A stretch of DNA of 64,000 nucleotides from Sphaerolaimus hirsutus (Eukaryota > Nematoda > Chromadorea > Monhysterida > Sphaerolaimidae), in the NCBI GenBank assembly GCA_964036195.1, contig OZ038454.1, positions 496,001 to 560,000 on the forward strand, in the 5' to 3' direction. This document shows positions 11,333-61,180 of this stretch, piece by piece. The position numbers and the translations under genes are program-made. How positions within the stretch are numbered: the first letter of the stretch is position 1; each line of letters starts with the position of its first letter. The notes under the pieces were generated by a model, which saw only the letters and a program-made list of their open reading frames with translations, was not told where the DNA came from and did not search any database.

Positions 11333-11488
11333 AGTTACTAGAAAGAAGCAACTATTTTGGACGTGTGTTGTCGTTCAATATGGGGTGAACCAGTCACACC
11401 TGAACTAAACAGACTCCAGTACAGTGATAGTAATCAACTGTACAGCTTTTCAACAAGTCCCCTCCGGCACAAAGCAAAAAGAGAAGCA

Positions 11489-29441: not shown

Positions 29442-29623
29442 TGTTGGTACCGTGAAGTGCACAGTTTATGATGTGTTGTTTTGTTGCTATTTATTGTTGT
29501 GTTACAATGCAACGAGAGGCTGGATAAATGAATACGCATAAAACCAAAACCCTTGCCCATACAATGCACTGCTTGGAATAAGCTCAATCGCATCTGCGGA
29601 CACCTAAGTCACCATCCGCAAAA
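29442..29623 (+). repeat. RT2 5' LTR
   Basis: 182 bp, identical by eye to 36869-37050. The primer-binding site begins one base after its end. Confidence 0.93.
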
Positions 29624-29684
29624 GTGGTGGACGACCTGGGGAATAGTAGTTGCCAAGCTACTGCCCAGTCGGGCAAGATTTTCA

Positions 29685-32600
29685 ATGTCGTATTCCGAAT
29701 TTGTGCCGCGGCGGCACACGAGAGCGCATCCAGTGAACAGAGTTTCACATTTCCATCCCGATTCGGCCCAGGAACGTCAGTTTCAGGAAAGTGCCCTGCG
29801 TCAGGCCTTCAGAGGTACCGTTTCCATGCCTTCGGATAGCCGGGAAGTTTGGCGCCCAGCGGATAGAGTCCTACAGGATGTTCCTTCGCCAGAGGGGATC
29901 AGGAATCTTTCTTCTTCAGACGGAGTCACGAACCATTTTGCTCAGCCCAGATCTCGTTTACCTATTCCTCGTTTCATTTTGCCACCGGTTAGAGTTGACC
30001 AAACAGGTACAGTTTTGTCCGTGCCGACGTCGCCAGATCTCACGGCACCACCGCCACGTTTAACGGCCATACCAGTGGACAGACAAATGGAACATTTTCA
30101 ACGTTTGGAACAACCTTTCTCGAAACAGGTGACGGCTTTCATTCCCGACGTTTCCAATCTATCGCCATGTCCACATACCCCATTTTTGGTCGACGCGTCA
30201 GTTTTTCCGGTGGGAAAATATTTTCATGAAGTAGCATTCGTGGATGGTTTCTCAAATAATCACTATGTCATGGAAAGTCCATTGTTACCTTCGCCCGATG
30301 ATGAATCGACCTGTGCGTTGCCAGAATCGTTGAGGTTTGTAGTGGACAAATTTGATTCGCGCATCACTCGTGTGGAAAGTTTGTTTGAAAATGCAGTTCA
30401 GGAATTTAAAGAGTTGACTAAAAAACATTTGTCAGATTTGAGGATGGAGAAAACATCGTCGATAACACAACCACAGGTAGGGAATGAACCAAATGAATGT
30501 CTCGGAGTGACCCCGGAATTGACATTGGATGGCACTGTTGAGAAATCACCAATTGACTCGAAAATTGTCGATAAGTCCGAGACGAAAAGTGTCGATAAAC
30601 CCGAATCGAAAATTGTCGATAAATCCGAGGTCGATCCATGGCATTTACATGATTTGTCGAAAGCCCCTCAGGCTATGTCCTGGAGCACCGAGTTGGACAT
30701 ATTGCAACATTGGATGATGATTAAATCACATTTGCTGGATAAAATCCCGGTATTTAAGGACAAAAATGATGTTGTCAAATTTACTGAGTGGCAAAGACAC
30801 GTAAAAACGACGGCCAGCTCGATTTCAAATGTGCAGTTATTGGCACATTATTGGCGGGACGTTTTCGCTACAAAATTAGCGGGTGAAGCTTACAAGGTTT
30901 TTGTGACCCTGTTTTCTCCGGAGACATCGCACGATTATTCAGATGTTTTGGCTTCATTGTCGGATGTTTTTAAGGATAGATCCTCGAGCTACACGATGCT
31001 GGAATGGGATAGTGCATTCATGTCCCGCACAGAAACTTTGTCCGAGTTCTACATACGATTATTGTCCAAAATCCCGGCCGACCTGAAAGCGACTGTCAAG
31101 CATAGTCGGGATTATGTGGAGGGTTTGGTCTCAGTGAAATTTTGGTCCCGTTACGACATGTCTCGCTTCGACAAGTTTGTCATGGCAAACTTCAAGAAAC
31201 AGTTCATTCACCAATCAATTCCAATGGCCAAGGCCATCCACATTATAGAGGAATATTTTGCGGAATTCCCGAAACCGATAATAACACAGACTAGCAAAAC
31301 ACCATCCTCCACGCGACCCCCCTTCAGGCAATTTTTACAAAGCAGCAATGACCCGTGGTGTCCACGCCCAGGACATTTCGGACACCGCAAAAGTCAGTGC
31401 CGAGCCGACAAACCACTCAACTCGAATCTTCCCTCGAACCCAATCACGTCCAATCAAAATATGGTGCCCACGTCAAAAGCTGATGGATATGGACATGTGC
31501 GTAGGCTCGGCCCACAACAAACACACGATATCCCAAATACACGTTTGCAGTCGAGCGCGAGAGCCGCTGGTGAAAATTTTCATGATCATGTAACCTCTGA
31601 TGATTTAGGTGATTGTAATGGCATGTTGCCAACCGAAAAAAGTTTCTCATCTGACGAACACGATCCATGCAGTGCTTATGTCACCGAGTTCCATCACAGA
31701 ATTTCGCAGCTATACAGTGACGACCCCGGTGCGTTCGCTTATTGGTCCTCCAACTTCATCCATGCACTCCCTATCTTAACTCAGAATTATGTGAATCCCG
31801 CGTCGACGAATTCTTCGAAAATGTGTTCCAGCGGGGAGCCGAAAATGAAAATGTTTGATAACATGAATGCACCAGTTGACAAGTTTGATCGGGGTGTACC
31901 AGTATTTGACAATTTGCCTACTCGTGATATTGTTTCTGGAAATTTGTTTGACAATGAAAACTGCATGGAATCTGAATATGGAAATGTCGCTGTAGAAAAT
32001 GGAGTGACCGCTTTCAGCTCAGTGGGAGACAATCAATGTTTATGTATCACCATAAAGTCCAGCAACGGATCTTTGGTATACGCAAACGTCAACATCGAGG
32101 GTATACCGTGCCGAGTATTATTAGACAGTGGCTGTACAAGGTCTTTGATGCCACTGGCATTATTCCAAAAAATTGCTTCAAGAACCCGCGTTGACACGGA
32201 AACGTTGATGAAAAAGTCAGATGTTTGTCTTGACACTGTCAATGGACAGACAGCAAATGGTGAATTGAGTGAAATACCACTGTACGTTGATCACGTCAGC
32301 CCAATTGACCATGTACGGCGCAAAGTGATCGCAACGTTTTTGATAAACAACAATACATCCGCTTTGACAGAAATACTACTGGGGACTGATGTCATGCCTT
32401 TTTTAAAGTTGACCTGGCTCATACCTCTAGTTTTAGATCAGAAATGTGATGCAAAAATCCCAGTAGATCACCCCGAAGTGGTTGAACAAGTTCAGGAAAA
32501 TGAAAAAAATTTCAACTCGATTTTTTCCAGTTTGGTGCATTCCACGAAATCAATTTTTGTGCCAGCTCATGGAATGCTTTCGCACTCGATATGCTTACCC

Positions 32601-32798
32601 AAACGACCAATGGACATCAACCCAGTTACCTGGCGAGATTCTGTTCTCGTGTATTCTAACACGGACACACTTTACACCGGATTATCAATGTACAATACCA
32701 CCACCACGATAAAAAACCATCAAAAATTGACTGAGTTTTTTCAACACAAACACATTCCCAGTGAGGTTGCCACGCGGAACACAACTGGCACGTTTTGA
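29685..32798 (+). CDS. gag: RT2 Gag and protease
   Basis: The first ATG after the primer site is 29685, giving 1037 aa; upstream codons of the open frame lie in the LTR. It holds a gag core (about residues 370-530), a degenerate zinc knuckle (CPRPGHFGHRKSQC, second Cys replaced by Pro) at about 558, and a retroviral-type aspartic protease with LLDSGCTRS near 812. The frame closes at 32798, 38 bases into the next frame. Gag packages the RNA; protease cuts the polyprotein. The GYGHVRRLGPQQTH segment has counterparts in the Gags of RT1 and RT3. Confidence 0.88.
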   Translation: MSYSEFVPRRHTRAHPVNRVSHFHPDSAQERQFQESALRQAFRGTVSMPSDSREVWRPADRVLQDVPSPEGIRNLSSSDGVTNHFAQPRSRLPIPRFILPPVRVDQTGTVLSVPTSPDLTAPPPRLTAIPVDRQMEHFQRLEQPFSKQVTAFIPDVSNLSPCPHTPFLVDASVFPVGKYFHEVAFVDGFSNNHYVMESPLLPSPDDESTCALPESLRFVVDKFDSRITRVESLFENAVQEFKELTKKHLSDLRMEKTSSITQPQVGNEPNECLGVTPELTLDGTVEKSPIDSKIVDKSETKSVDKPESKIVDKSEVDPWHLHDLSKAPQAMSWSTELDILQHWMMIKSHLLDKIPVFKDKNDVVKFTEWQRHVKTTASSISNVQLLAHYWRDVFATKLAGEAYKVFVTLFSPETSHDYSDVLASLSDVFKDRSSSYTMLEWDSAFMSRTETLSEFYIRLLSKIPADLKATVKHSRDYVEGLVSVKFWSRYDMSRFDKFVMANFKKQFIHQSIPMAKAIHIIEEYFAEFPKPIITQTSKTPSSTRPPFRQFLQSSNDPWCPRPGHFGHRKSQCRADKPLNSNLPSNPITSNQNMVPTSKADGYGHVRRLGPQQTHDIPNTRLQSSARAAGENFHDHVTSDDLGDCNGMLPTEKSFSSDEHDPCSAYVTEFHHRISQLYSDDPGAFAYWSSNFIHALPILTQNYVNPASTNSSKMCSSGEPKMKMFDNMNAPVDKFDRGVPVFDNLPTRDIVSGNLFDNENCMESEYGNVAVENGVTAFSSVGDNQCLCITIKSSNGSLVYANVNIEGIPCRVLLDSGCTRSLMPLALFQKIASRTRVDTETLMKKSDVCLDTVNGQTANGELSEIPLYVDHVSPIDHVRRKVIATFLINNNTSALTEILLGTDVMPFLKLTWLIPLVLDQKCDAKIPVDHPEVVEQVQENEKNFNSIFSSLVHSTKSIFVPAHGMLSHSICLPKRPMDINPVTWRDSVLVYSNTDTLYTGLSMYNTTTTIKNHQKLTEFFQHKHIPSEVATRNTTGTF

Positions 32799-33591
32799 TG
32801 TCTATGGGCCTACCGCGATTCATAGCCCTGGCAGTAAATTCTCCAGCATTTTTTCCTCAACAGACTATTCCGTTCCTTTTGGAATTATGCCAATGATACC
32901 TTTACAGAGAGAGAGTGATGCGAGTGGTGTGGCTGCGTCGTCTTTAGTATTGCCCACACCACCCACAGACACCACACTGTGTCAACAAGCATTACCTGAC
33001 AAAATACCCGATACGCCTGAACTACGAGCACAGCATGTATGGAATATAATCAAGGATGACATTCAAGTGCCTTTCACACCAGAGCAACAATCCCAATTCT
33101 TTCAATTGATTTCGAATTTTCATGATGTGTTTAGCTGCTCAGATTATGATGTCGGCAATACGCCGTTGTTGTCACATACCATTGAAACAGACCCATCTCA
33201 ACCACCTATAAAACAGGCTGCTCGATATGAGGCACGTCACAAAAGACCTTTCATACACAAAACCATAGCTTCTATGCTCAAAGAAGGCATAATTGAAACC
33301 TCAAACGGTGCGTGGGCGTCACCCATCACGATAGCCCCTAAGGGGACTTCTGATTTCAGGTTTTGCGTCGATTTCAAATTGGTTAATCTCCTCACAAAGA
33401 TTGATTCGTACCCTTTACCGAGGATCGCCGAGATACTTTCAGAGTTTTCTGGGAGAAAATCTTTTCGGCGTTGGACATCCGCCACGGTTACTACAACGTC
33501 CCGTTGGCCGATGAGGGCACCAAGGAGCGAACTTCTTTTGTGTGTAGCTTGGGTCAATTTAGGTATACTCGCCTTCCATTTGGAACTGTGA
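32761..33591 (+). CDS. pol: RT2 Pol, N-terminal part of reverse transcriptase
   Basis: Frame +1 relative to gag. It covers the linker and first half of RT (HTIETDPSQPPIKQAARY, then ASPITIAPKG and DFRFCVDFKLVN). Homology stops at about 33465, after SGRKS, where the next frame takes over. The gag/RT change could be a programmed +1 shift or a one-base lesion at about 32750-32765. The second change, in a T run near 33465, interrupts a conserved RT block and looks like a lesion or sequencing error. Confidence 0.8.
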   Translation: MRLPRGTQLARFDVYGPTAIHSPGSKFSSIFSSTDYSVPFGIMPMIPLQRESDASGVAASSLVLPTPPTDTTLCQQALPDKIPDTPELRAQHVWNIIKDDIQVPFTPEQQSQFFQLISNFHDVFSCSDYDVGNTPLLSHTIETDPSQPPIKQAARYEARHKRPFIHKTIASMLKEGIIETSNGAWASPITIAPKGTSDFRFCVDFKLVNLLTKIDSYPLPRIAEILSEFSGRKSFRRWTSATVTTTSRWPMRAPRSELLLCVAWVNLGILAFHLEL

Positions 33592-35762
33592 ACGCGGGGG
33601 CTACTTTCCAGAGGCTCATGGCCATATTACTGGCGGGTTTGAATGACGACCCTCAAGCCCCTTGGGTACGCGCGTATGTGGACGACATTTTGTGCAGTAG
33701 TTACGATGTAAAACAGCATTTTTCCCATTTGAAACGTCTGTTTGAGCGACTGCGGTGGGCTAATTTGAAAATCCAACCTGGGAAATGTAAATTTTTCGCC
33801 TCTGAGTTGAAATATTTGGGTCACCATATCTCGTCCACTGGCATTTCGCCAGCGCCGGCGCGTTACAGGGCTGTGATCGAGCAACCCAAGGTGCACACTA
33901 AACAAGATTTACGGCGCTTTCTAGGAAAATGTATCTACTATTCACACTTCATCCCAAATTTTAGCCGGATTTCAGCACCGCTGTATAGTGTCTTGAAGGG
34001 GCATGTGTCCAAAAACGGCGACACCCCTTTTGAATGGACCGAGGATATGTTGACAGCCTGGGACACTTTGAAACATTTACTTTCCACAACCCCTGTTTTG
34101 GTGCATCCAGTATTCGACGATCCCCGCGGATTCATTTTAGAAACTGATGCGAGTGGTTTAGGACTTGGCGCTGTTTTGTCACAGTATGGGGACGATGGAA
34201 AATTACACCCAGTCTCGTATATATCCAAAAAACTCGCTCACCCGCACACAACATATTCTGCTGCATCTTTAGAAGCGTTGTGCATTTGCTGGGCCTTGAG
34301 ACGTTTCGCTGATTATTTAGAAGGTCAGAAAGTGACTGTGATCACCGACAACTCTGGGATACAACAAGTTTTATGCTCGCCGCATCATTCTAAGTTGTCC
34401 AGATGGGCCATCTTTGTCCAGGATAAAGTGACAACCTTTATCCATCGACCAGGTATTCAAAATGTTGTCGCTGATGCGTTGTCGCGTAACCCCATAACAG
34501 AACATGAATTCGGCGTGGATGAGTTGAAGAAACCTTCTGAATTGGTAATCGGGGATGAATGCAGAGATGTTTGCGCCCGGGTAGAGCCCGTGTTGTCCAC
34601 TCAAACCGACATAGACTGGAAATCAATCCAACAAAATGACGCAGAGTTATCTCAAATCATTTTGTCCTTGTCAGCTGATAACGATGCTGTGCCTGGCGCA
34701 CATTTGATTGAGGACATTTTGTATTTTCGAGCACCAGTCCATTCACAACATCTGGCAATTTGGCCACCGAAAACATGGCAGCATGCATGCCTGTTGCAAG
34801 CACATTTGGGAGTTTACGCTAGTCATGGCAGTCAGGCACGCACGCTAGATCTGTTATGTCAGTATTTTGCCTGGCCAGGCATGAAACAGGACATACTTGA
34901 ATTCTGCCAGCAATGTTCTGAATGCATAACCCTAAAATCACACCGAGTCAATGCCAGCCCTTTAGGGAATGTGACTACCCCCTCTCAACCATTTGATGTT
35001 TTCCATGTGGACACTATGCATTATGACAAAAATTCTAGCCGAAAAATATTTGTCGCCGTTGATTCACTCTCACGGTACATGATTACCGCCATATTGCGTT
35101 CATTATCAGCTATTTCTGTTTCCAAAGTTATATACAACAATATCTTCATGTTTTGCGGCGCACCGAGAACCATTGTTTCCGACAGGGGGACTGAATTTGT
35201 AAATTCAGATTTTCGGACTTTATGTGAATCATTTGGCGTATCACACAGTACAACAATGTCATATAATCCTAGCGCAAACGGACTCGTAGAGAGGGCTAAT
35301 CGATCCCTGCGGGAGACACTTTTGTTTTGTTCTAGAGAATTCCCTCACCAAAAATGGTGGGATTTGTTACCTCTGGCCACATTGCGTTGCAACATGGCCA
35401 TGAATCGCATCACTGGCTGTTGCCCGTTCTACATTGTTTTCGGGCATTTACCTCATTGGAATCTATTTTTCTCTGCAGCGAGGAAAATAGATCCACAACA
35501 TGCTCGATCCGTGGCAAAAACTCAAAGTGATAAGAATCGAGAGATTTACAAAAAACGTTTCGATGATATCCACCATGTCACCTTCAACTGCGGCGATAGG
35601 GTGATGGTTAAAAGATTATCCATGGAAAAAACACCAAAATTCGATGGACCATATGTGGTCAATTCCGTATCGAATTCCACACTTTTGTTGGTTGATCATG
35701 CGGGTCAATCATTTTCAGTGCCACACAGATTTGTGTGGAAATTGCCTTCAACACGTGTGTAG
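33471..35762 (+). CDS. pol: RT2 Pol: RT C-terminus, RNase H, integrase
   Basis: 763 aa, back in the gag frame. Reverse transcriptase continues from MDIRHGYYN and includes the catalytic YVDDIL (about 33676). RNase H has ETDASGLGLG (about 34141). The integrase zinc domain (H...H...CQQCSEC) is at 34795-34930, followed by the DDE residues (HVDTM, VSDRGTEF, GLVERA) and a GPY module near 35645. Together these copy and insert the element. No further break was noticed to the stop at 35762. Confidence 0.92.
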   Translation: MDIRHGYYNVPLADEGTKERTSFVCSLGQFRYTRLPFGTVNAGATFQRLMAILLAGLNDDPQAPWVRAYVDDILCSSYDVKQHFSHLKRLFERLRWANLKIQPGKCKFFASELKYLGHHISSTGISPAPARYRAVIEQPKVHTKQDLRRFLGKCIYYSHFIPNFSRISAPLYSVLKGHVSKNGDTPFEWTEDMLTAWDTLKHLLSTTPVLVHPVFDDPRGFILETDASGLGLGAVLSQYGDDGKLHPVSYISKKLAHPHTTYSAASLEALCICWALRRFADYLEGQKVTVITDNSGIQQVLCSPHHSKLSRWAIFVQDKVTTFIHRPGIQNVVADALSRNPITEHEFGVDELKKPSELVIGDECRDVCARVEPVLSTQTDIDWKSIQQNDAELSQIILSLSADNDAVPGAHLIEDILYFRAPVHSQHLAIWPPKTWQHACLLQAHLGVYASHGSQARTLDLLCQYFAWPGMKQDILEFCQQCSECITLKSHRVNASPLGNVTTPSQPFDVFHVDTMHYDKNSSRKIFVAVDSLSRYMITAILRSLSAISVSKVIYNNIFMFCGAPRTIVSDRGTEFVNSDFRTLCESFGVSHSTTMSYNPSANGLVERANRSLRETLLFCSREFPHQKWWDLLPLATLRCNMAMNRITGCCPFYIVFGHLPHWNLFFSAARKIDPQHARSVAKTQSDKNREIYKKRFDDIHHVTFNCGDRVMVKRLSMEKTPKFDGPYVVNSVSNSTLLLVDHAGQSFSVPHRFVWKLPSTRV

Positions 35763-39992: not shown

Positions 39993-42900
39993 TCAAATCC
40001 TCAGAGTCATGCATTTGGCTGCGCCTCCAGCCTTTATAAACTCGGCCACATCTACGAAATGCACGCGAACGTTTTTAACGTTTTTGTGCAACTTTTCGGC
40101 CAACGTTTTGTTGCCCGCCGGCAGGATTACGTTGCACGTTTCAACGTTGGTGTTCGGATCCACCTGGGGCACCACGACGGCGTTGCACGCGAAACGTTCC
40201 GCCTCGGATGGGGATACCTAGGGTGATACGTTTCGATACGTTTTTTAACGTTTTTTTATTTTGAGTTGGCGCTATGCACGCGGCGAGGACTCCGTGCACA
40301 TGTAAACTCGGTGCCTATGTAGACCAGAGTTAAAAAAAGTACTGAACTTTTTTGAAAGTAAACGTAAACGTTAAGATTTTATTTTTTACTCACAGGCGAG
40401 TACAGAAAACGTTAAGTATTTTTAAAATACTATTACACTGCGTAAAACGTTTGAAAAACGCAGAGAAAACGTAAAAATGAGTATTTCTTTCCGGGGAAAA
40501 CGTAAAAATGGGTATTGTTTTCACACAAAACGTAAAAGTGGGTATTTACTCTCACAAAAATAATGAAAAAATCAGTATCTTTTTCGATGTTTACTCTAGA
40601 ATACATCGGAAATGTGTTTTCTCTCCTGATAAGTATTTCTTAGTAGCTAGGGATGGCACGTGTTTTTTTAAACCGTCGTAGTTAAATAAAAAAACGTTTT
40701 TTTATTAAAAATAGAGGCATCGAAACTGTTTTTTATTTAAAAACAGCAGCGAATTTTTTTTGTGCTAAGCACTAGGTATTTTGCGAGTTTTTTGCGCGCA
40801 AGCGCGCAATTTCACATACACTTTACCATTTGTGGTTGTTTTCATTGGTTTTGAGGCAGTTTTAGTGTGAAAGCTTCCATTTGTTCATGCTATTGTGTAA
40901 TAATAAGCTGTGATATGTTAGTGTAGTATATAATATCCAGCCAATGTGCTCCCACATACTTCTACAGTGTGTAGCACCCCTTTCAATGTATTACCCTTCT
41001 CTTACAACCTTATTTAAGACTATTCCATGCTGAACTTCAATTGAAGTCACGAACGTTCGACAAAAGGCGATATCTGTAACAAGTCGACAAAAAATGGGTA
41101 TTTTTGACAGAAATTACCACTTATAATGCTATCCCAGCACTCCACAGCTATTCTATGGCTATACTTAACATCACAGAGTACTGATGTACCTGTATGTGTA
41201 GACCCATAACCATATCTGGGAGCTTTAAAAAGACCGTTTTATTAAAAAAAAACTTTTTAAAAACACAACGTTTTTTTAATAAAAAACAGGGTCGTTAAAA
41301 ACAGTTTTGTGCCATCCCTATTTCTTAGTAATTTTTTTTTCTCTTTTTGTCACTTTCTGTCCGGAAAAATGACATTTTCTGTCACCTTAAAATACGTTTT
41401 CTAAAATACGTTTAAAATACCTAATTAAAATACTTTCAAAAAGTATGCGAGTATGTGAGTACCGGTATTTTTTTCGGGACGAAATGTAAACGTATTTACG
41501 CAGTAAATGTTGTTGAGAAAAACTATGATGTAGACGCGGTGCCTATGTTAACTCGGTGCGCATGTAAAGTGCTACAGCTATGGGTTTATGTGCGTGCCGG
41601 GTATTTGCCCGTAAGAGTTCGCTTCGTTCAATGCATTTTCCGGAATGAGTTGTCCACTTCAACGCGAATTTCTTATCCCCATATTTAATCTAGATCCTTT
41701 TTCAACCGTTTTAATAAGAAAAACGTACCTGAATCAATTTCAAACGTTTAGAAAGCTCCTCAAAGCCGCTCGCTTCGAACGCGGGCTTGTAAACGATCGC
41801 CGTCTCAGCGTTTATTGGACAAAAACACACGTCCAGATGGTAAAATCTGCGCCGGTGAAAATCATATATTTCGATCGAGTGACATAGATATCGAGATAGA
41901 ATCGAGTGACATATATTGATATCAGGGTTCAAACGGGAACACGGTACCGGTAGATGGTTCGGCAACATTCCGGACTGGGGCGGTACCGGTCCCGGTCCTG
42001 ACACCCCAGTCCCGGTCCCGATAAAAAGTGCCGGTCATGTATAGTTGACCACTTTATCTCATGAATATTGAACTTTTCAGTGTTGTCGACTCGTCACAAA
42101 ACATCCGTGTAAACGGGGCCTAATCAAGTCAATTGGTGCCATGCGGCCGACAGAGTCAAAATCAGTAAATTATATTGAGGTGCAGTCCCACACTCTGTGA
42201 AGTATCAAACGCCATGTAAAATATCATACAAATTTGTCAAATGTCATGCAAAATGTCAAAAGTTCAGTCAAACAAAATTTTTTTAAAATTTTATTTTACT
42301 TGACACTTTACATGACATCGGACACTTGACTTAACAGTTTACAGAGTGTGGGACTGCCCCCGTAACCCAAGACTCACTTAGGATTAACCAATCTCAACAG
42401 CACAGTTTCGAATTTGCCGCCATTTTCCGGCCGCGACAGAACTTTCTTCAATCGATCAAATACTTTCACTGAAGTTCTTTGGCCGTAACTTCCGATCAGT
42501 AGGGGGCGTCCAAATTCCGTCAAGAAATCAGCTTCCGCAGCCCCTATTTTTTGAGGGTGGGATTTGGGATGGAATTAGGTTAGGAACGTAACCCCCCCCC
42601 CCCCCCCGATTTTTAGCGACGAAACAACGCTTTCTGATAAAAACGTTTTATAAAAATAAATTTATAATTTTTTTTATAAATAATAAAAATAAATATTTTT
42701 TTTGTTAAAAACCTGGGGTGTTTTTTGTTGCAAAAGCTCCTTAATTATAATTATGATGCAACATATATAGGTATATTTAGGAATGAAAAAATGTTGTTTT
42801 CAACACGCAAAAAAAACGAAAGAAAAATCAAGAAACACCAAAAATATTATTTTTCATCCACATTACATATCCGGATAATAATTTCCTACCCGACTCCATA

Positions 42901-45900
42901 ACACTTTAAATTACTTGCAGGAGAATCAAACTGAATTATCTTACCATAACACCAATTAGGGTTAGAACAAAGAAATCTATTCAAAAGTTTAAAAAAAAAG
43001 TTTTCACCCTGTCACTTCCTTTTTCAGGTTTTAAAAAAAGTTGACAAAATCAAGTGCAATATGTACCTAATTACAACCAACCTTCAAAGGGGTGTTCATT
43101 CTCCTGCACCACGGTGTAGCCATTGTTGCGGAACCACTCGGCGAAGTGCACAGTTTCACCCCGTCGCTCCGCGTTGTACATTTTCGCCATGTACGCGGTG
43201 TTGTTGCGAACCTGCAAACGAGACCAAAAGTGAGAATATTGAAAAGTGGTAACGTTTAAATTCTAAACCCCCACACAAAGGAACGATGTTGACACCTGGT
43301 GCCAGTCCCAGACCCTGTAAAAAGCTGTGTCAAATGTCTAATGCCATTCAAAGTGTCAAACGTCATGCAAAATGCCCTACAAAATGGCAACCAAGGACGT
43401 ATCCAGGGGGGGCGGATCGGCCCCTGTAAACCAATATCCTCGGAAATAAACACATTTTTGCGAATTTCGTTGTATATGTATGCATTTTTACATACATAAA
43501 AGCGGTTCCTGCCGCTGGCGCCAACGCCAATAGCGCCATGGCGTGGCGCCTTTGTATGGCGCTAGCGCCAAAACGCCTTTCCGTCCCTATATATGGAAAA
43601 ATTTTAGGGGGGGGCGGGGCTGAGCCCCCCCCCCCGTTCGCTGGTCGCCGTAAACAAGCAGCCCCCCCCCCGCTCAAAAATCCTGGATACGTCCCTGATG
43701 GCAACTCGGTTCTGTTTTACTGGTTGGGGGTTCGCGGCGGTTCAATATATAGGTTTTTTCGCAATGTGGAGGGAGAAAATGAGAAAAATGGCTAATCAAG
43801 GGATAGTAGTCAAACAATTTGCCACAGGAAAGGAGGTTTGCTGAGCGGCCCCATGCATAGATACCGTATTACCTCGAAACACCCCCCGGGGGGTGATTGT
43901 TCCATAGTGCTCCCGAGAGGGGGGGGGGGGTTAATATTTCACCAGAACTTTTTTGAAAGCCAAGTACAAAATCGTTGTTTGTGATGTGCGCTGGGGTAGA
44001 AAAATACATCAATAACTGACATGTAAAGACTCCTGTAGACTAATAGTAGTACGTAGATGGTATAAACACTGTTCTAACGTGATTCCGACATTGTTTTAAC
44101 GTGTGTTCTGCACTACGCAGAACACAAACTACAGTATTTGTCATGTACGTTCTCTTTACACTCAATCTGGGGGGGGGTATTTCGAGGAAATACGGTAGAT
44201 AGCTGGAGCGTTGAGGGGGGGGGGAACCCCATGCTGCACCCGCCCTGCCACAACCCAAGAGACCCTTCACAAAAAAAAATGAAATAATTTATAAAAAACG
44301 AACCACGGCCGCATTAGCGCAGAAGACCATATCCGGCAGGTGGGCGGCGCCGGGCGAGGGCTCGCGCACCAGCACCTGGGGCCTAGTTCAATCTACCCGA
44401 CGTGAACTTTTCAGCTAGACCCATTGATAAAGTGTGCCCAGGTTATATTTGTGAACAGGGTCTTCCTTCAGTGCCTTCAGTGTGCTTCGGGATTGGGATG
44501 TAATAGGCTCAAAATGGATACCAACGAAGTTCGACATTAATTCACGATCCTGTTCAGGGTCATTCTGAAGGTTGAGAAGTAATTTAAAAGATTTTAAAGT
44601 GAGAAGTAAAATAAGAAGTGAAAAGTTTACGTTTTTTCAATTTTGTTTATTTTTTAGTGGGTTTTCTTGTCACCTCCCATTTGTGTTATTTTTTACTTCA
44701 CTTCTAAATTAAATTTTTTTACTTCTCACTTCTAAATTAGTTATCAACTCTCAACCAGCGAAATTGGCATAAAAATTCCCATTCCAACGAGCGAAAAAAA
44801 TAGTTCCCGAATCCCGATCAGAAAAATTCCGGAATACATATACCAAAAACCCGATCGGGTCTGAAATCCAGGTCCGACAGGATAAATCGGGTAGCCCGAA
44901 AACAGCATCGGGCAGATTGAACTGGGCACCTGCGCGCCGCAACTCGACAACGTGCTTTTTAGCTCCGACCATTGTCTGTGCGCTCTGCGGGGGGGGGGGG
45001 GGGTGAAAGTTTGGTGAAAGTGTAAAAATGGGAATGTGAAAATTTTTTCGATTGAATGTGGCTAATTTACGATTTTGAATTGCATCCCTCTTTTTAATTC
45101 CATCCTTGCAAAAAAAACACGTTCGAACTACCCTTGCCAATATTGGGTGTGTGGTGGACCAATGCGCTTACACATTTCAGTGACTTGTGTGAAAACTGAA
45201 ATGGCCACATGGCGAAATTCAGCCTACTTGTATTGTATGCTATGTGTTTTAGTTTTTAAATTCAAACTTTCATAAATTACAATTGGGGCGTCCAATTCTA
45301 AAAGTCGACAGTCCAAAATATGAAAATTTCGAGTTAGGCCCGGAAACGTCATCTGGGGCTACTTCTCCACATTTTTCTTCCTTTTCCATAAAGTTTTTGA
45401 CCTCACATGCCCATATGGCAAAGTGCCAAATTTGACATTTTTTGGGAAAAATGCAAAAAGTTTGGGCAAGAAGTCGACAAGTCCACTTAGTTTTGGGCTA
45501 AAAGGCGACAAGTCCATCCTCCGCTTCCTTTTTTATGGGGAAAAAACGCAAGAAATGTGATAAGTCCAGAATGGAAACCGATTTCTAAAAAGCGACAAGT
45601 CCATAATTTTCGCATAAGGCAGCCTCGGCTTCCACGGGAACAAAAATGTTCTCGCGTGCAAGAAGGCGACAAGTCCATTTCCCTCCCAAAAACAGATTTG
45701 TTCTGACCGAATGGAATTTTATGGACATCCCATTTTTCAGATACGTTGAGCGCAGGGGCTGAAAATTTGACACTTTATTGTTAACATATGGAACTTTATG
45801 AAAAGCATGAGAGGGCCAAATTGGACATGCACCACGGGCCTGGAATTGGATCGGAAACTTAAAATGCGATTTACGCAAAATCACATTTTGTGGACTTGTC

Positions 45901-46737
45901 GACTTTTAGAATTAGACGCCTCAATTCAAATTTAAATTAAATCGTTCCACCGTGATGATTAATTTGCATTTGAAAAATTGCAGTTTTCACCCAAGTCACG
46001 GTGAAAGCTTGTGTGTGTGACACATGTACCGATGATTTTGAAGCCGAAAATTTGCAAAAATGACACCTCGATTTTGAATGAAAGTTTGGGCAAAATTTCT
46101 AAAAAATCACTCCCAATCGTTGGCAGATTATTATTTGTCGACGGACAAAGGCCAGATCTGTGCGTCGGGAAAAGCGGGTGACGGGTCCAGACTTGTCTGT
46201 CAACAAAAACTTTTTGGCGGAAAACGGAAACGGATAAAAATTTACACTTGCCGGAAAAAAATTGCACCTGCCGGAAAACGGAAAAATGAAAGCCCGGAAA
46301 ACGGAAAAACTTACTGAAATTATGCCGGAAACTGGAATTTATTGCTGAAATTTATTCAGAAATCAAAAAATTTGCAGAAATCTTGCTATAAATAGAAACT
46401 ATTCACATAATTGAGAACCTGCATGCATCTTTACCAGTAGGCTGAAACAGAAAACAGAGAATTGAGTCACTAAATGGAAAAAAAGTTGGAAAAACAGACA
46501 ATTGAGCCGGAAAAAGGCGGAAAAACGGAAATTTTAGCCGGAAAACGGAAAGTTGACACCCTAGTCAAGACAGACCCAAAACGACCTCCGAGCTATAAAA
46601 CCGAAACCAAGCGAAACCCAACCCAAATACACAAACCTGGGAATATCGACGTCATGCATCGAATTCATCCATGGATTTATAGAATACGCCACCCGGAAAT
46701 AAGTGGGCGTGGTCATAAGTATCCTTCTGGCGGACAT
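39993..46737 (-). CDS. DDAH/arginine-deiminase-like hydrolase, seven exons
   Basis: Exons on minus are 46737-46637, 44984-44930, 44375-44304, 43211-43082, 42543-42378, 41846-41729 and 40217-39993. All borders are GT-AG and all phases agree, giving 867 bases or 288 aa, the normal size. Family landmarks in order: MTTPTYF and INPWM (N-terminus), LPDMVFCANAAVV, ERRGE, FEG, SYGQRTS, FYHLDVCFCP with the probable catalytic His (178), and GGAAKCMT with the nucleophilic Cys (283). These define the five-bladed amidinotransferase-fold hydrolases that cut guanidino groups (dimethylarginine or arginine to citrulline); the exact substrate cannot be told. Likely cytosolic. The introns are full of transposons; intron 2 is itself one. 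The gene appears intact. Confidence 0.92.
40644..41320. mobile_element. hAT-like element, TAGGGATGGC ends
   Basis: Left TAGCTAGGGATGGCAC and right GTGCCATCCCTA ends with exact 8-bp duplications TTTCTTAG (40636-40643 and 41321-41328). The interior is poly-A/T with AAAACG words and shares its centre with 23960-24560. It lies in DDAH-like intron 6. Confidence 0.78.
42180..42360. mobile_element. Harbinger-like MITE (CWG family)
   Basis: The ends GTGCAGTCCCACACTCTG and the inverse GTGTGGGACTGCCCC enclose TGTCAAATGTCATGCAAAATGT words. It sits just inside the donor end of DDAH-like intron 5. Confidence 0.72.
43299..43720. mobile_element. Interrupted Harbinger-like MITE
   Basis: The left end GTGCCAGTCCCAGACCCTG follows CTG (43296-43298), with family words TGTCAAATGTC inside. 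It is split by the hAT-like element at 43392-43697 and its right end is not recognisable. Confidence 0.6.
43392..43697. mobile_element. hAT-like element, ACGTATCCAGG ends
   Basis: The ends CAAGGACGTATCCAGG and CCTGGATACGTCCCTG have exact 8-bp duplications ATGGCAAC (43384-43391 and 43698-43705). The interior has long G/C runs and GGCGCC words. Confidence 0.8.
43862..44196. mobile_element. TACCGTA/CCCCC-family MITE
   Basis: The ends ATACCGTATTACCTCGAAAC and the inverse TATTTCGAGGAAATACGGTA bound a centre matching 25180-25420. It lies in DDAH-like intron 3. Confidence 0.78.
44379..44929 (-). mobile_element. Harbinger-like element forming DDAH-like intron 2
   Basis: On the coding strand the ends are GTGCCCAGTTCAATCTGCCC and (inverse) GGGCCTAGTTCAATCTACCC. 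CAG is duplicated on both sides (plus-strand CTG at 44930-44932 and 44376-44378). The intron is exactly the element plus the second CAG. The donor GT is the element's first two bases and the acceptor AG is the end of the second CAG. Splicing gives ...CGAQ then VLVREP, the expected uninterrupted family sequence. Confidence 0.88.
45143..46020. mobile_element. CCTACACAC-type MITE split by a TIR element
   Basis: The outer MITE ends are GTGTGTGG... at about 45146 and CACGGTGAAAGCTTGTGTGTG at about 46015. Between them at about 45291-45925 is an element with ends GGCGTCCAATTCTAAAAGTCGAC and the inverse, the same family as 23627-24772. Confidence 0.62.
46195..46575. repeat. Degenerate CCGGAAAACGGAAA repeat
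   Basis: The words CCGGAAAACGGAAA and close variants recur from 46215 to 46550, ending GTTGACACCCTAG. It looks like a hAT-type non-autonomous element made of its own subterminal repeats. It lies in DDAH-like intron 1. Confidence 0.55.
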
Positions 46738-47821
46738 TTTGGCACGACTCCAATTTGTTAACTCACAAAATGCATCCACAAAATTAGCTGGTTTCAATGA
46801 AAAAAGAAATGTGAAAATGATTTTCCAATGAAACAAAAACAAAGATAGGTCACTGGCACTGACTGCTCGCTTTACAATGGAATTTACCATATTCTATCTG
46901 AATAAAAACTACAGCAAAATTTAGTTTAAAGTTTTCTCATGACATTGGCGCTGCACTGGTTCACTGCCAGTATTTAAGAAAAAAAATTTGATAAACTCAT
47001 GAAACATATTCGAATGTTTGAGTTTACTGGATTTAGGTGTTAGTCAACTAGTTGACAGAGAGTAAAAATAACACATTCCAGTAAACTCAAATAAGTTCAA
47101 GGTTGATTTCATTTTAGTTTCAAAATCTCAAAAAGTCTCAAAATTTCACCGACTAACAAGTGTGTGCAGCGACATTGCATTCCTCTCGCCGTGGATAAAT
47201 TCAGTGCAAAATCTTTCGCCTGACTTAATTCATCAAAATACGGTAACGCTACTTGTAAAGCGTGCACCCCAAAATACTTTACAATTAGTACAGGAGTTAT
47301 TTTCAACACCACCAATGAACACGCAAGGGCGACACGAAGAAAAGATATACAGGACTTTTGGATGATTTATTTTTATCAAATTCACAACAAGTTCACATTT
47401 AAATAGTTTCTTTTAAATAAATACAAGTTTGGTGAAATAAGCAAAAACATTTTTTAATCCAGTGTAAATGAATGGATAAAGTGCGGTTTTAAAGTATACA
47501 GATTGGCATTGAAAAATCTCTGGGGAATTTATATTTAAAAATATCAGAAAATATAATAATTTTTATTATTATTTTACACAGGAGTTTCTGAAGATATTTT
47601 ATTTTATGTATGTGATTATTGAGATATCTCTGAGATTTTCAAAAACATCAGAAAATCGGTCAAAAGATTATCTTTTACCAAAAAAATATATTTGAGAGAT
47701 TTTCTGAGACAATATCACGGGTCTCCAATGGGTGGGGCGGGGGGGGGCAATGGTTCCGCGCAATTACACCATCTCAATGTTGTACCCAGAAAGAAATGAT
47801 ATCATGTGTCGAGGCAGTCAG
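46738..47821. other. 5' flank of the DDAH-like gene, no second gene seen
   Basis: This would hold the promoter of the minus-strand DDAH-like gene, but no core motif is clear. A diverged MITE with TTAGTCAACTAGTTG-type ends spans about 47035-47165. The remaining open frames have no support. Confidence 0.5.
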
Positions 47822-48044
47822 GGGGCAGTCCCAAGCCCTGTAAAGTGTAAAGTAAAGTGTCAAATGTAAAGTCAAATGCAAAGTAAACTGTCAAGTGTAA
47901 AGTCAAATGCAAAGTAAACTGTCAATTGTCATGTAAAGTCCAGTAATAAAATCTTTTCTTTTTTGTTTTGATTGACACTTGACTTTGCATTTGACTTTAC
48001 ATTTGACACTTTACTTGACACTTTACAGGGCTTGGGACTGCCCC
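47822..48044. mobile_element. Harbinger-like MITE (CWG family)
   Basis: The ends GGGGCAGTCCCAAGCCCTG and CAGGGCTTGGGACTGCCCC lie between CAG (47819-47821) and CTG (48045-48047). The interior is inverted arrays of AAAGTAAAGTGTCAAATG words. Confidence 0.82.
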
Positions 48045-48506
48045 CTGTGGTGTCAAATCACTACAGGGTGACCACTACTGTTAATCATTAAACACTTTGA
48101 TGTAGGTATATTTCGGGGACTTTTCTTGTGCCACACTGCCCATTTTATTCGGTATGTGTCAAGTCATTGTCTGCCATGTACCTGAGTGGAAAGTGCAATC
48201 GATACTTATTGTTGTATTGTGCGGTTCTCACGACCCTACTCAGTATATCTATCTATGTATCTATCTATCTATCTATCCCAAAGCAAAATTTTTGGGTTAC
48301 TACCCCTGAACGTCCCTAAAGTCGTCCGGCTATATAAGATTATTCCAATTTTATGTTTAAGGATTTCGAGTGTTCTTCAACTTTAGTTTTAGAGATTTTT
48401 TGATTTCTTCGTCTTGATTAAGTGTTTTTGATTAAGCGAACCAACAAATAACGAATAGATCCCACAGGATTTACTATCCACCGGGAGCCCGCCAAAATCA
48501 GACCTG

Positions 48507-50717
48507 GGGGCAGTCCCAAGCCCTGTAAAGTGTAAAGTAAAGTGTCAAATGTAAAGTAAAGTGTAAAGTAAAGTGTCAAATGTAAAGTAAAGTGTCAAGT
48601 CAAATGTCAAATGTAAAGTAAAGTGTCAAGTCAAATGTCAAATGTAAAGTAAAGTGTCAAATGTAAAGTAAAGTGTCAAGTCAAATGTCAAATGTAAAGT
48701 CAAGTGTCAAATGTAAAGTAAAGTGTAAAGTAAAGTGTCAAATGTAAAGTAAAGTGTCAATTGTGATGAAAAACATAAAATATTGATGAAAAAAGAAAAT
48801 TATTAAAAGGAAATTCACAAATTCCGAGTGAAATGAATTCATTCCACCATGGATAGGAGAGTATAGTGATTTTTAACCTTTTATCGTATAGGCTGTATCA
48901 TAAATCCGCAATATCAAGTATTGGCATGTTGCCAGATTTTAAATGTGATATTTTTGTATCAAAATCGGGAATCATGCCATATGAAGACTTGGCATCGTGC
49001 CAGAAAGTATAGACATCGCTATAAAATAGGTACATAACCATGTATTCAGACGGAAATAGCAATTTTAAACGTGAAAATTAGCGAAATGGTGTACAATGTA
49101 CAAGTACATATTTCATATTGGACATTTTGAGCAAAAAAACTGAGGAAAAATCAGCCGGATATAGACGTGGGCCAAATCGCTTCGCTAGCTTGTATACTCG
49201 GCAGACATGATACTATACAATGAGTTGCATGATGTCATATCATGCACGCTGTATCCAACCCGTAGAACTCTGTTTTGGTGACTTGTGCTTACGCATATAC
49301 GGAATGAAACTATTCAATTGTGCCCGCACAATTCAAACCCCCGTCAAAGTGTAGTTGAGTTTTTTGGCATGATGCCATCCAAGCGTCGTCTGGATCTGAA
49401 TAAATACAAAGCGGGAACATTTTCTGAATTCAAAATTTTGAACGTAACAAGTTTTCGTCAAAATGAATCGATAGCGTGTAACTTTTCTAAATATGAATTA
49501 GATTAAACGTAGGTAAACATAAAATCAAAAATTTGCTGCACCTATCGGCACAAAAATTGGAGTAAACGAGTGCGTAAAGAACAGCACATTTTTATTTTCC
49601 TTCTTACTATCTTTATATTTTCTTTTTTACTAAATTCCTTTCTCGTTCGCTCTACAAGAACAAAATATAACTTTCCAATTTTGTAGAATGAGATGTCCGT
49701 CGACTATACATCTAATATTGACATATTTACGACCCACTGTGCACCGTTTTTCTACCGTATTTAAGATGTATCGCACATCGCTGTTCAGTAAGATGTTGAA
49801 TTTCATTGACGCTCAGCGAAGCAAAACATAAGTGGACCAAACCTGTGTAATATCATGTCTGCCGACTATACTAAAGGACAAGTCCTGAGACGTGACTTGA
49901 TCCTCAAATCAACAGCTTAAATTAAAAAAACGTCGCGTTTCAAAATACTAAGTGTAATATTAAAATCGACTTGTACTAAGTGTAATGTCCGCCAAGTATA
50001 ATAAAAAGATAATCCAAATATAAGTAAAATCATGCTCAAATCTGATTGCAGAAAAATTAGTGCAAAAAGTGCAAAAACTTATGCCTTCGAGGTTTTGAAC
50101 ACAGAACCTCAGGTAGCATAGCCCCAAACACACACCACCGCGGCATCAAACGACGCTGGGGTGAGCTCATTAACAGTAAACATATCGCGCAATATTTTTT
50201 AAATTAAATCAAACATTGAATTTGTACAAACCTTTGGTGGCTGAAGCTGTGCGCCGATCCTGGACAGAACAAACTCCACTTGTGCAGGGTTAAGGCGAAA
50301 TCGTTGCTTGAAAAATTCTTCATTCTCTGCTCCAAAATTCTGCCGCGGCCGATAAGTTGAAATTCTAGGTTCACCATCGCCATCCGACACGATACTATCC
50401 ATGTCGGAATCCATTTCGCTGATTTCGTGAATTTCTTTTTGATTTTTCTTTTTTCGTGAATATTTACTGTTTGTCATGACAATTGACACTTTACTTGACA
50501 CTTTACTTTACATTTGACATTTGACTTGACACTTTACTTTACATTTGACACTTGACTTTACATTTGACATTTGACTTGACACTTTACTTTACATTTGACA
50601 CTTGACTTTACATTTGACATTTGACTTGACACTTTACTTTACATTTGACACTTTACTTTACACTTTACTTTACATTTGACACTTTACTTTACACTTTACA
50701 GGGCTTGGGATTGGCAC
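48507..50717 (-). mobile_element. 2.2-kb PIF/Harbinger-like transposon with transposase remnant
   Basis: The ends GGGGCAGTCCCAAGCCCTG and CAGGGCTTGGGATTGGCAC are flanked by exact CTG duplications (48504-48506 and 50718-50720). Each end carries about 260 bases of subterminal array (TGTCAAATGTAAAGTAAAG and the inverse). The minus-strand frame 50501-50199 lies just inside. No full transposase is visible in the middle, so this copy is probably non-autonomous, but it is the largest member of the family here. Confidence 0.85.
50199..50501 (-). pseudogene. Harbinger-type transposase N-terminal fragment
   Basis: 100 codons on minus with an acidic SEMDSDMDS stretch and then FFKQRFRLNPAQVEFVLSRI, which resembles the helix-rich start of HARBI1-type nucleases (F..RFR..). 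A GT (GTTTGT..) near 50230 could be a donor. The DDE nuclease core was not found downstream, so it is an exon or remnant. Similarity is by eye only. Confidence 0.5.
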
Positions 50718-54342: not shown

Positions 54343-54460
54343 AATGGTGGACGAGCAGGCATCACTTTTCCTCATTTATTTGGGGCAAGTGTTGTTGAAC
54401 CTGTACGCAATTGTTAACAAATCCCTCTAACAGTGAACCCAAACAGCTGCATACATCTTC

Positions 54461-56806
54461 ATGATGTCAATTCCTTTGGATTTATCCACTGGATCGTCAA
54501 AATTATCTGTTCACACCGCTACTGAAATGAACGGATCAAACGCAAATTTGAATGTGACCGCTGTAGGTCAGACCGCTGTAGGTCCACAAAATGTACTCAA
54601 TTTGAGCACTCTGAATTCAACAACGACAACGGTGTATACTGCAACTCAAACAGCACCGGCATACGCACTCGCTAATGTGACGTACACAAACACAAGGCCA
54701 CGCATGGGCACACGTTCGACGGAACCTTTGAACTACTTGACAGCACCACAGTTGTTCCAAAACTGTCAAGACACTTTGAAACAAGCACAAAAGGATGCCG
54801 CAAATAGGCGTCGCCAAATCGGGGAATGTGATGTTTCCACGGCAACCGCTGGCACGTTAGCCATAGATGAGCATTTGAATTTGTCGCATAATGAAAGCGG
54901 CATCAACGACATGGTCAACGAACACGACGTTGATTCACTATCACCGAATGAAGTGGAACATGAACAAATAACCAATTCGACACAAGTTTGGATCATGAAT
55001 CAAATTGATCAGTTGTCACGCGAAATGAGGGCAAATTTGTCTCAAACTCGGACGGCGATGAACGCAAACATCGACGATTTAAAAACACAGTTGGTTCAAA
55101 TTCAGGAATCTCTGTACGAACGACAGCACTACATGATGAATGCTTTTATGGGGGATTTATTTCCTGCCATTGACAAAAAAATTCAATCTGCAGTAAATCC
55201 AATTCATGACCAATTAAACGAAATTGTCAACACGATGTCAACCCTGCAGTTGAAGACGACCGATAAAGAAAATGAACCATGTGAAACCAACGAAACAAAT
55301 GAAAATTCAATCAGCGAAACGATGTCAACTCCCTTGGAAGAGTTACACAGCTGGCACGCATCAGCACTACAATTAGTGCTTTCGCAAATTCCCGAATTTG
55401 AAGGAAATGCAGATGAAAGCTTCAAGGAGTGGAAAGCGCAGGCACAATGCCATTTGACAATGTTTCCAGCAAAATTCGCAAATGCCATTTGGAATTTGAT
55501 TTTTAGGGCCAAATTGAAAAAATCAGCAAAACACATTTACAAATCTCTAACAGAACACCAAAAACTGGACTACAAATACGTCCTAACCGAATTTGAAGGG
55601 CTATACAACCCCTTTGACAACAGACTGTCCATGGACGATTGGCAGCGTTGCAGGCAGCGGAACACGGAAACAGCCATGCAATATTGCTCACGATTACTGG
55701 CAAAAATGCCTAGAGAAGTCTACGAAGACATGACCCCTGAAATTTGGCGAGGCTTCGTCGCAAAACAGTTGCTTCGAACACTGGGGAATAACCGGTATGA
55801 AACCATACTTCTGTACAACTTGAGGAAACAATTGACAGAAAAAATCATCACAGAGCCAAGACAACTGGCATTGCAATTGGACACTTATACCAGGGAAATG
55901 AAAGAAACTGGATTAGACCAGTCGAAATTTGAACAGTCGAAAAATTTGCATGGAAACAAATTCGAAAATCCCAAACCAAACACAAAAACGGAAAATTTTT
56001 CGAAATTCAATAAAGATTTTTCCAAAGAAAAATGTGACTTTTCCGGACATTATGGACACACTAAGGATCAGTGCATCCTTCGAAAAAAATTGAAATGGCA
56101 GTCACAAAATGCCACAGGAACCGGCGCAGGCACAAATCGAACTCAATTTAGTCAACCGGCCAGTGCTGGTTATTCTGGCGTAAAAAATGTGGGTCCCACA
56201 CCAACCCACAATTCGGGCCTGCCAAATAAAACCAATTTCACCAAACAGTTTACATTTCCCCCTAAAAAAACTTTCCCCAATTCACAGTTTACACAAACGG
56301 CGGCCCCCACAAACTTCAACGAAAATGTCACTACCGACGAAATCAGCGGGGCGGAAAATGACAAAACAGAACATGACGAAGAAAATGTCACATTGGACTC
56401 GTTTATGAACGAATTGGCCCAACAGGCACAGGGAATCCCTGCAGATTTGCAACATCAGATTGCTACTTGTGTGCAAAACTTTCTGGCAGGTGAGTCATCA
56501 AAATCACTAAAATTAGAAAAATTCGAGAATTCGGAAAATTCCAAAAAGAAATCCCAAAATTCACAGACTATGAAAATCCCGAACCGGCTGGCGAAACCCC
56601 TACAGAAAACTATTCAGCACAACTGGAAAACTGCAACTGGGATGTTGAAATGTGATTTGTCAAAATGTGATTTGTCGAAATGTAATTTGTCGAAATGTGA
56701 TTTGTCTGACAAAAAACCTACTGACCAAACTGAGAATTCCCTAATCGAAAACTTGACAAAAAACGCAAATAAAAAACCAATCGAAAACTCAAATGCGAAA
56801 TTTTAA
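54461..56806 (+). CDS. gag: RT3 Gag
   Basis: 781 aa from the first ATG after the primer site. A Thr/Asn-rich N-terminus is followed by a predicted coiled segment (about residues 170-280) and a gag core (about 300-480, LSQIPEFEGNADESFKEW). The zinc knuckle CDFSGHYGHTKDQC (about 525) has Ser in place of the second Cys. Near the C-terminus CDLSKCDLSKCNLSKCDLS is a four-unit repeat. GYSGVKNVGPTPTH matches a segment in RT1 Gag. TAA ends it directly before an in-frame integrase remnant. It forms the particle shell. Confidence 0.9.
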   Translation: MMSIPLDLSTGSSKLSVHTATEMNGSNANLNVTAVGQTAVGPQNVLNLSTLNSTTTTVYTATQTAPAYALANVTYTNTRPRMGTRSTEPLNYLTAPQLFQNCQDTLKQAQKDAANRRRQIGECDVSTATAGTLAIDEHLNLSHNESGINDMVNEHDVDSLSPNEVEHEQITNSTQVWIMNQIDQLSREMRANLSQTRTAMNANIDDLKTQLVQIQESLYERQHYMMNAFMGDLFPAIDKKIQSAVNPIHDQLNEIVNTMSTLQLKTTDKENEPCETNETNENSISETMSTPLEELHSWHASALQLVLSQIPEFEGNADESFKEWKAQAQCHLTMFPAKFANAIWNLIFRAKLKKSAKHIYKSLTEHQKLDYKYVLTEFEGLYNPFDNRLSMDDWQRCRQRNTETAMQYCSRLLAKMPREVYEDMTPEIWRGFVAKQLLRTLGNNRYETILLYNLRKQLTEKIITEPRQLALQLDTYTREMKETGLDQSKFEQSKNLHGNKFENPKPNTKTENFSKFNKDFSKEKCDFSGHYGHTKDQCILRKKLKWQSQNATGTGAGTNRTQFSQPASAGYSGVKNVGPTPTHNSGLPNKTNFTKQFTFPPKKTFPNSQFTQTAAPTNFNENVTTDEISGAENDKTEHDEENVTLDSFMNELAQQAQGIPADLQHQIATCVQNFLAGESSKSLKLEKFENSENSKKKSQNSQTMKIPNRLAKPLQKTIQHNWKTATGMLKCDLSKCDLSKCNLSKCDLSDKKPTDQTENSLIENLTKNANKKPIENSNAKF

Positions 56807-60941: not shown

Positions 60942-61180
60942 CCTACACACACTAGTTTTCACCGTGACTGATGTGAAAACTGAAATGGCCACATGGCGAC
61001 ATTCAGCCTACTCTTATTGTATGCTATACGTGTTAAAGTTCTCAAATTTTCAAAGTTTAACTTTCATTAATTTAAATTCAAATTTAAATTTGATTAAACA
61101 ATTCAAACGTGTTCATTAATTTGCACTTGAATTTTTTTAAGTTTTCACACGAAGTCACGGTGAAAACTAGTGTGTGTAGG
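60942..61180. mobile_element. CCTACACAC-family MITE
   Basis: The ends CCTACACACACTAGTTTTCA and the inverse ending CTAGTGTGTGTAGG bound 239 bp. Its left tip was the target of both the hAT-like element (53331-54176) and RT3. Its right tip was the target of the hAT-like element at 61184-62056. Confidence 0.85.

Follow-up and report, generated by a model that had tools for sequence, protein, structure and literature searches.

The second intron of a DDAH-like gene in Sphaerolaimus hirsutus is very probably an inserted transposable element with a CWG target that is removed from the mRNA, and the creation of introns is in all likelihood a property of the element's family and not of this one copy. 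We propose that a nonautonomous cut-and-paste element inserted into CAG/GTG within one ancestral exon (slashes mark borders throughout). At the DNA level, the first two bases of the element would have supplied the donor GT and the duplicated CAG the acceptor, and removal of the element with one CAG would restore the protein exactly.

RESULTS

Intron 2 of the DDAH-like gene coincides with an element with inverted ends

The DDAH-like gene lies on the minus strand of the window (the whole 64-kb stretch of DNA that was analysed), as do all of its features given here. It consists of seven exons with GT/AG borders, and the joined coding sequence of 867 nucleotides (nt) is open to the stop codon. Exon 1 (positions 46637 to 46737), exon 4 (43082 to 43211), exon 5 (42378 to 42543), exon 6 (41729 to 41846), and exon 7 including the stop codon (39993 to 40217) were placed by the gene model and by a search of the genome with the DDAH protein, and exon 2 (44930 to 44984) and exon 3 (44304 to 44375) by both of these and by alignment of homologues. 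The nearest named relatives in the alignment were nematode proteins with 40 to 47% identity, and in none of the 12 aligned homologues did a gap interrupt CGAQ/VLVREP, the residues on either side of intron 2. COX1, on contig C762, had best hits at 89% and 79%, and the named organisms among its best 120 matches included insects at 64 to 67%; together with the DDAH relatives, this indicates that the host is probably an ecdysozoan. Exon 7 by itself matched the Pfam family DDAH_eukar with an E value of 0.0023, which falls under the family cut-off. This exon also encodes about 10 residues, VDPNTNVETC, that are additional relative to all 12 aligned homologues.

Intron 2 (44376 to 44929) is composed of a 551-bp element (44379 to 44929), extending from the G of the donor GT through the base preceding the second CAG, plus one CAG. 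It starts with GTGCCCAGTTCAATCTGCCCGA and finishes with ...TCGGGTAGATTGAACTAGGCCC/CAG. The 5' terminal inverted repeat (44908 to 44929), whose leading two bases form the splice donor GT, and the 3' terminal inverted repeat (44379 to 44400), whose inverse reads GGGCCTAGTTCAATCT..., matched at 19 of 22 positions. At least 19 matches were found for 20 of 2,000,000 random position pairs spaced 400 to 1200 nt apart in this repeat-rich window, indicating that chance does not explain why ends so well matched fall precisely on the splice sites set by homology. Since the splice sites defined by homology and the ends of the inverted repeats coincide to the base, just one CAG is left over, and taking out the element with one CAG restored the protein exactly at the DNA level. 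These findings bear out the sequence-only reading of this region, which had identified intron 2 as a transposable element, assigned the donor GT to the element and the acceptor to the second CAG, and noted an unbroken protein from CGAQ to VLVREP.

The same reading had described the inverted ends as accompanied by a 3-bp CAG duplication. The left CAG (44930 to 44932) is the final codon (Gln) of exon 2, and the right CAG (44376 to 44378) serves as the splice acceptor CAG/; both fit the CWG target-site duplication (TSD) of the family described below. The inverted ends were upheld, as was a TSD for the family, but this copy alone is no proof of duplication, and the direct repeat across its junctions is actually 7 nt long (CAGGTGC). 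A layout in which an exon ends in CAG/ and is followed by GT...CAG/ is the usual consensus at splice sites, and the same 3-bp CAG borders intron 1 of this gene on both sides. We therefore rejected the CAG duplication of the DDAH copy as sufficient evidence of a TSD, proof of which needs other family members.

The splice signals of intron 2 look poor with respect to both the donor beyond its GT (GTGCCC) and the pyrimidine tract of the acceptor. A search with the whole intron as a DNA query revealed that the element contains a further, nested repeat at intron positions 156 to 373 (44557 to 44774; limits approximate), whose relatives elsewhere were 69 to 87% identical over the matched parts, with the best-scoring one at 79%. 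This divergence suggests that the element did not insert recently, although a varied repeat family could mimic such a result. Compared with a family consensus drawn by hand, one end of the DDAH copy differed at 7 of 24 positions and the other at 8 of 24.

A DDAH paralogue lacks the element

A search of the genome with the DDAH protein detected the gene in the window and one distant DDAH-like paralogue on contig C16, and no empty DDAH allele was found in this search. The exon of the paralogue is unbroken at the position of intron 2, reading GGC GTC AAG GTG CTC compared to GGC GCG CAG/element/GTG CTG in the window. The paralogue is also without intron 1, which in the window gene is not an element of the intron 2 family, so intron loss in the paralogue is possible. 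As judged from its DNA, the paralogue presents the site without the element, though loss may have occurred there.

Other features of the window

The window is dense in short elements with inverted ends, with 86 inverted pairs among those listed, many of which overlap (examples are 49192 to 49871, 27896 to 28133, 60942 to 61180, and 47819 to 48047). Two such elements, at 42182 to 42357 and 45273 to 45934, are inside DDAH introns 5 and 1, respectively, and lie off the splice sites, in contrast to the element of intron 2. We also observed frames resembling Ty3-type LTR retrotransposons at 5528 to 11374, which contains reverse transcriptase, RNase H, and integrase domains, at 29532 to 35762, and at 54437 to 57806. 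What is probably a potassium channel gene is represented by frames at 18634 to 19487; the first part matched Ion_trans_2 (3.6e-8), and the second part (19176 to 19487) had no Pfam match.

Dispersed relatives of the element share a CWG target

We searched the assembly of 348 Mb in 762 contigs for related elements. With the whole of intron 2 as a DNA query, in a search that skips very common words, we detected only the intron itself and relatives of its middle (intron positions 156 to 373), which is in line with family members sharing mainly their ends. In contrast, a pattern for the element ends with up to three mismatches occurred at 112 places in the genome versus 16 for a reversed-pattern control, and a pattern including the CAG-GT form matched 308 times versus none for the reversed control. 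These results further support intron 2 as a transposable element with dispersed relatives. No further copies were found when the 64-kb window was searched, and five matches of a 16-base end pattern in viral contigs were taken as chance.

We reduced 80 loci (L021 to L100) to 28 distinct end pairs by dropping loci with no acceptable pair or with repeated flanks; near-duplicates among the 28 are L038 and L066, and L054 and L078. When ends were paired blind to the TSD, five of the eight distinct pairs with at most four mismatches carried an identical CWG on both sides. Identical CAG or CTG flanks were present in DDAH, L027, L031, L040, and L046 and absent in L025, L028, and L035. With a pairing procedure that favours a TSD, identical CWG flanks were found in 22 of the 28 pairs. 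The flanks of these copies indicate that the family duplicates a 3-bp CWG at its target.

The ends of family members are close to GTGC[C/G]AAATTYAATTTGCCCGA, and the inverted ends of about 22 bp lie inside longer complementary ends. About 50 bp at each end are common to members, and interiors are mostly each member's own, with a total length of 89 to 1257 bp. In 19 of the 28 copies, one end was GT and the other GG. The search that found many of the copies required a GT end but made no such demand for GG, and the family itself therefore seems to be polarised.

PIF/Harbinger elements are defined by a TWA duplication and their sister group NuwaI, found mainly in animals, by CWG (Han et al. 2015, PMC4482050). 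The sequence-only reading had invoked PIF/Harbinger elements with a 3-bp duplication; the length was correct, but the duplicated CWG is typical of NuwaI, a group within the PHIS superfamily, and not the TWA of PIF/Harbinger proper. The family thus resembles NuwaI in the 3-bp CWG duplication and an animal host, and no transposase or Myb/SANT protein was tied to it here. DDE_Tnp_4 had 163 matches in the genome, and by eye none of the matches listed adjoins any of the family ends listed; frames in the five elements longer than 700 bp reached at most 147 amino acids. The DDE_Tnp_4 matches themselves form a very uniform group (for example C4:29627453-29628085), dozens of which have nearly equal scores, and contain some four TGA codons within a segment that has no counterpart in the Pfam model and may be an intron of the transposase gene.

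Copies of the element interrupt other conserved genes

At many sites, joining the flanks with one CWG produced frames open over the junction. We scanned chosen spanning frames from 20 of the 28 loci against Pfam (L021, L025, L032, L054, L057, L066, L078, and L099 were left out). Four loci yielded a conserved domain that spans the empty site and exceeds its Pfam cut-off: L040 (Metallophos, 6e-11; by eye a PP1-like phosphatase), L083 (Galactosyl_T, 9.2e-15), L089 (TRAPPC13_M, 1.2e-17), and L098 (SNF, 1.2e-36; an SLC6 gene). L061 matched SLC15A1 (3.8e-22) across its junction. L040, L083, and L089 have the exact DDAH layout, CAG/GT...CAG/ on the coding strand with only the 3 nt of one CAG left over. 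Thus, the search for elements that coincide with introns, which the sequence-only reading had proposed, yielded the same arrangement in other conserved domains, and the element equals the intron end to end in several genes (DDAH, L040, L083, and L089, by inferred gene models). In L061, the element is reversed in an SLC15-like exon (GG...CTG). Matches to zf-C2HCIx2C at L031 (0.0038) and Abhydrolase_1 at L083 (0.039) were under the Pfam cut-off and were taken as chance, and peptides from L087 and L031 gave nothing of weight against PDB sequences.

We also scored the flanks by codon-position composition, with 1557 CWG sites in the window as a control and a training set that contains DDAH and one SLC6 paralogue and therefore favours L021 and L098. 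Ten of the 28 sites had p values of at most 0.05 and six of at most 0.01; L083 and L089, which are coding by homology, were unremarkable in this score. L038 and L066, two of the ten coding-like sites, have GT at both ends and are uninformative. In seven of the eight informative coding-like copies, the GT end was 5' on the better-scoring strand (one-sided binomial, 0.035), or in six of seven without DDAH, with L061 as the exception. By homology, the same polarity was found for five of six copies. Although the numbers are small, the side on which the GT end lies seems to depend on the direction of the gene, as would be needed for splicing.

In some exonic copies, the coding strand reads CTG in place of CAG. 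Homology assigns L098 and L061 to this class, and inspection by eye adds L064 and L100, around which the exon borders look plausible. The codon-position score of L100 prefers the CAG strand (p = 0.087), and we did not count L100. Under the GT-AG rule, copies ending in CTG should be unspliceable. The CTG-oriented copies and the one reversed copy in intact exons imply that GT-AG splicing does not account for all of the insertions that exons tolerate. The best other match of L061 was 88% over 59 bases, and no near-identical copy was present among 40 candidates scored, so L061 is not plainly derived from a fresh burst.

SLC6 paralogues carry a series of borders at one codon

The SLC6 gene at L098 has three close paralogues in the genome, P1, P2, and P3, and all four are split at one codon. 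The borders are CTG/GTGCGC...CGTCC/CTG in L098, CTG/GTGACA...CATCC/CTG in P1, CTG/GTGCCA...CATCC/CTG in P2, and CTG/GTAAGA...TGTCC/CAG in P3. The earlier prediction that every landing of this family at a correctly oriented CAG gives rise to an intron was consequently too narrow, given the CTG copies in these paralogues and the reversed copy at L061. In the 73 codons compared on both sides of the insertion, dS between L098, P1/P2, and P3 was 0.65 to 1.24 and dN was 0.012 to 0.040; P1 and P2 are a close pair (dS 0.13, dN 0.012). We considered whether the CTG copies are dead alleles, which does not fit the SLC6 genes as dN is low with the element present. At C7:18632550-18632649, a more distant SLC6-like sequence matches query positions 95 to 194, with 100 bases for 100, and by its coordinates it runs unbroken through the site at position 146. 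If the insertion was shared by the four paralogues, selection on these genes has remained strong while an exon contained a GT...CTG element, and one copy, P3, became a consensus GT-AG intron.

Comparisons between the SLC6 introns indicated likeness at the ends. Identity was 67 to 96% over the first 24 nt and 83 to 96% over the last 24 nt, and 80 to 92% (5' side) and 79 to 100% (3' side) over the next 24 nt inward. At 48 to 72 nt from the 3' end, identity was 0.75 for L098-P1, 0.71 for L098-P2, 0.61 for P1-P3, and 0.62 for P2-P3, and 0.52 for L098-P3, relative to a random median of 0.46 and a 95% point of 0.56. At 72 to 96 nt from either end, identity was 38 to 59%, equal or close to that of unrelated sequences (median 46%, 95% point 56%), although the comparison was made at fixed distances and indels add to the difference of the interiors. 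In predicted RNA folds of 11 introns, computed without a shuffled control, 10.6 to 21.4 of 25 end-to-end pairs formed. Such pairing follows from the inverted repeats and is no proof of function. Likeness of the ends retained after insertion, however, does not follow from inverted repeats, unless the insertions were independent.

Independent insertion, that is, four separate hits at one preferred target, would make the paralogues silent on age and maturation, and we consider it unlikely. Related transposons can show long target preferences, and the alignable ends and nonalignable interiors of the SLC6 introns could reflect separate arrivals, as ends are alike throughout the family. Against separate hits, the identical codon is split in all four paralogues, and in some pairs (not L098-P3) the likeness extends past the outer 48 nt.

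Probable removal of the element from mRNA

From the intact and conserved DDAH gene, the copies in intact domains, and the selection on the SLC6 genes, we infer that the element is removed from mRNA, most likely by the spliceosome. The terminal stem of the predicted folds may help by joining weak borders, which could explain the tolerated CTG endings. We tentatively extend this to a model, to which we give slightly less than even chances, where complementary ends of about 48 nt on either side, kept by selection, hold the borders together; GT...CTG would then be removed as precisely as GT...CAG, copies in both orientations would be introns at birth, and some, such as P3, would mature to GT-AG introns.

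The weak splice signals and the existence of antisense and reversed exonic copies could instead mean that an element in an exon is not removed and that the gene or haplotype is broken or was hit only recently. We regard this as very unlikely because all seven DDAH exons are open and conserved, the divergence of the ends (7 and 8 of 24 positions) and the nested repeat (best-scoring relative at 79%) suggest that the copy is not new, although a varied repeat family could produce the same picture, the search with the DDAH protein returned no empty allele, and the SLC6 genes have a dN of 0.01 to 0.04 at a dS of 0.65 to 1.24 (0.13 for P1-P2) with the element in place.

Elements of the PIF/Harbinger type are known to excise precisely. 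Precise somatic excision at the DNA level would tolerate any orientation, as the persistence of coding-strand CTG copies and one reversed copy in intact conserved exons might suggest, and precise excision has been published for a related superfamily (PMC4561436). The position of the GT end, which is 5' in seven of eight coding-like and five of six homology-supported copies, points to splicing, as does the GTAAGA...CAG form of P3, and no transposase source is linked to the family; somatic excision is accordingly hardly probable. Least credible is that the element replaced or invaded an older ordinary intron and that its ends met the splice sites by chance or by later trimming. Invasion of introns does occur in this gene, since DDAH introns 1 and 5 contain inverted-repeat elements inside their borders. 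In intron 2, however, both ends fit both exon borders to the base and leave just 3 nt (CAG), an arrangement shared with L040, L083, and L089, and the C16 paralogue is uninterrupted. Our preferred reading thus remains an inserted element removed from mRNA.

DISCUSSION

Tc1 is spliced out of mutant mRNAs in Caenorhabditis elegans and is an example of a DNA transposon in an animal exon. Splicing of Tc1 rescues mutants with varied sites, which differs from the family-wide and exact creation of introns proposed here.

Introners are an already known kind of element; what is new here is the host, the CWG target, the polarity, the presence of members with GT...CTG borders, and the series of paralogues. 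In the survey by Gozashti et al. 2022 (PMC9860276), only two groups of animals and none of land plants contained introners, and the main text of that study has no mention of nematode, PIF, or Harbinger. According to the same study, introners are over-represented in genes, and in some families the element supplies one splice site and the TSD the other. The family analysed here resembles those introners, which are nonautonomous DNA elements, many with TSDs or terminal inverted repeats, that generate introns by insertion into exons, and it differs in its CWG target and in apparent GT...TG introns from the other orientation. As expected of introners, element and intron coincide end to end, and relatives (the C16 paralogue and the SLC6-like match on C7) have an intron-free site. 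A study of intron gain in nematodes (PMC9169325) names introners just as an example from elsewhere. Among the papers listed on nematode introners, NuwaI introns, and Harbinger target sites, no title or abstract opening described a CWG introner family.

The closest likenesses in RNA structure are with protists. Introner elements of the dinoflagellate Amoebophrya (PMC7789003) have inverted ends, a predicted hairpin joining the exon borders, direct repeats of 3 to 5 nt at the borders, and noncanonical borders, as seen here. Those elements have RNA support and varied borders, whereas the present family has an animal host, mostly keeps GT, and targets CWG. In the nonconventional introns of euglenids, inverted ends also join the borders in RNA, and an origin from MITEs has been proposed (PMC6221363, PMC4770533). 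The ends of the present introns are likewise predicted to pair in RNA. Euglenid introns show no conservation at their borders and have been described as absent from eukaryotes other than euglenids and diplonemids (PMC6221363). In contrast, the GT...CAG and GTAAGA...CAG copies look spliceosomal, and GT comes first in seven of the eight informative coding-like copies; exceptions at the borders are L061, which starts with GG, and L098, P1, and P2, where CTG replaces the AG end. GT-TG introns are known in a few human genes (PMC4176328). Overall, we regard this as an introner-like family in an animal, whose removal may be stem-assisted and may have a relaxed need for AG.

Where new introns originate has long been asked, and animals rarely have introner families, with two groups described in PMC9860276. 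Here, a chromosome-scale animal genome carries a paralogue series from GT...CTG to GTAAGA...CAG. A polarised family with a fixed target, combined with an empty site and the paralogue series, could make the birth and maturation of introns traceable stepwise. If the CTG copies are truly removed, the rule of an AG at the 3' end of animal introns would be relaxed in this family, perhaps via an RNA stem, with the nearest parallels in protists.
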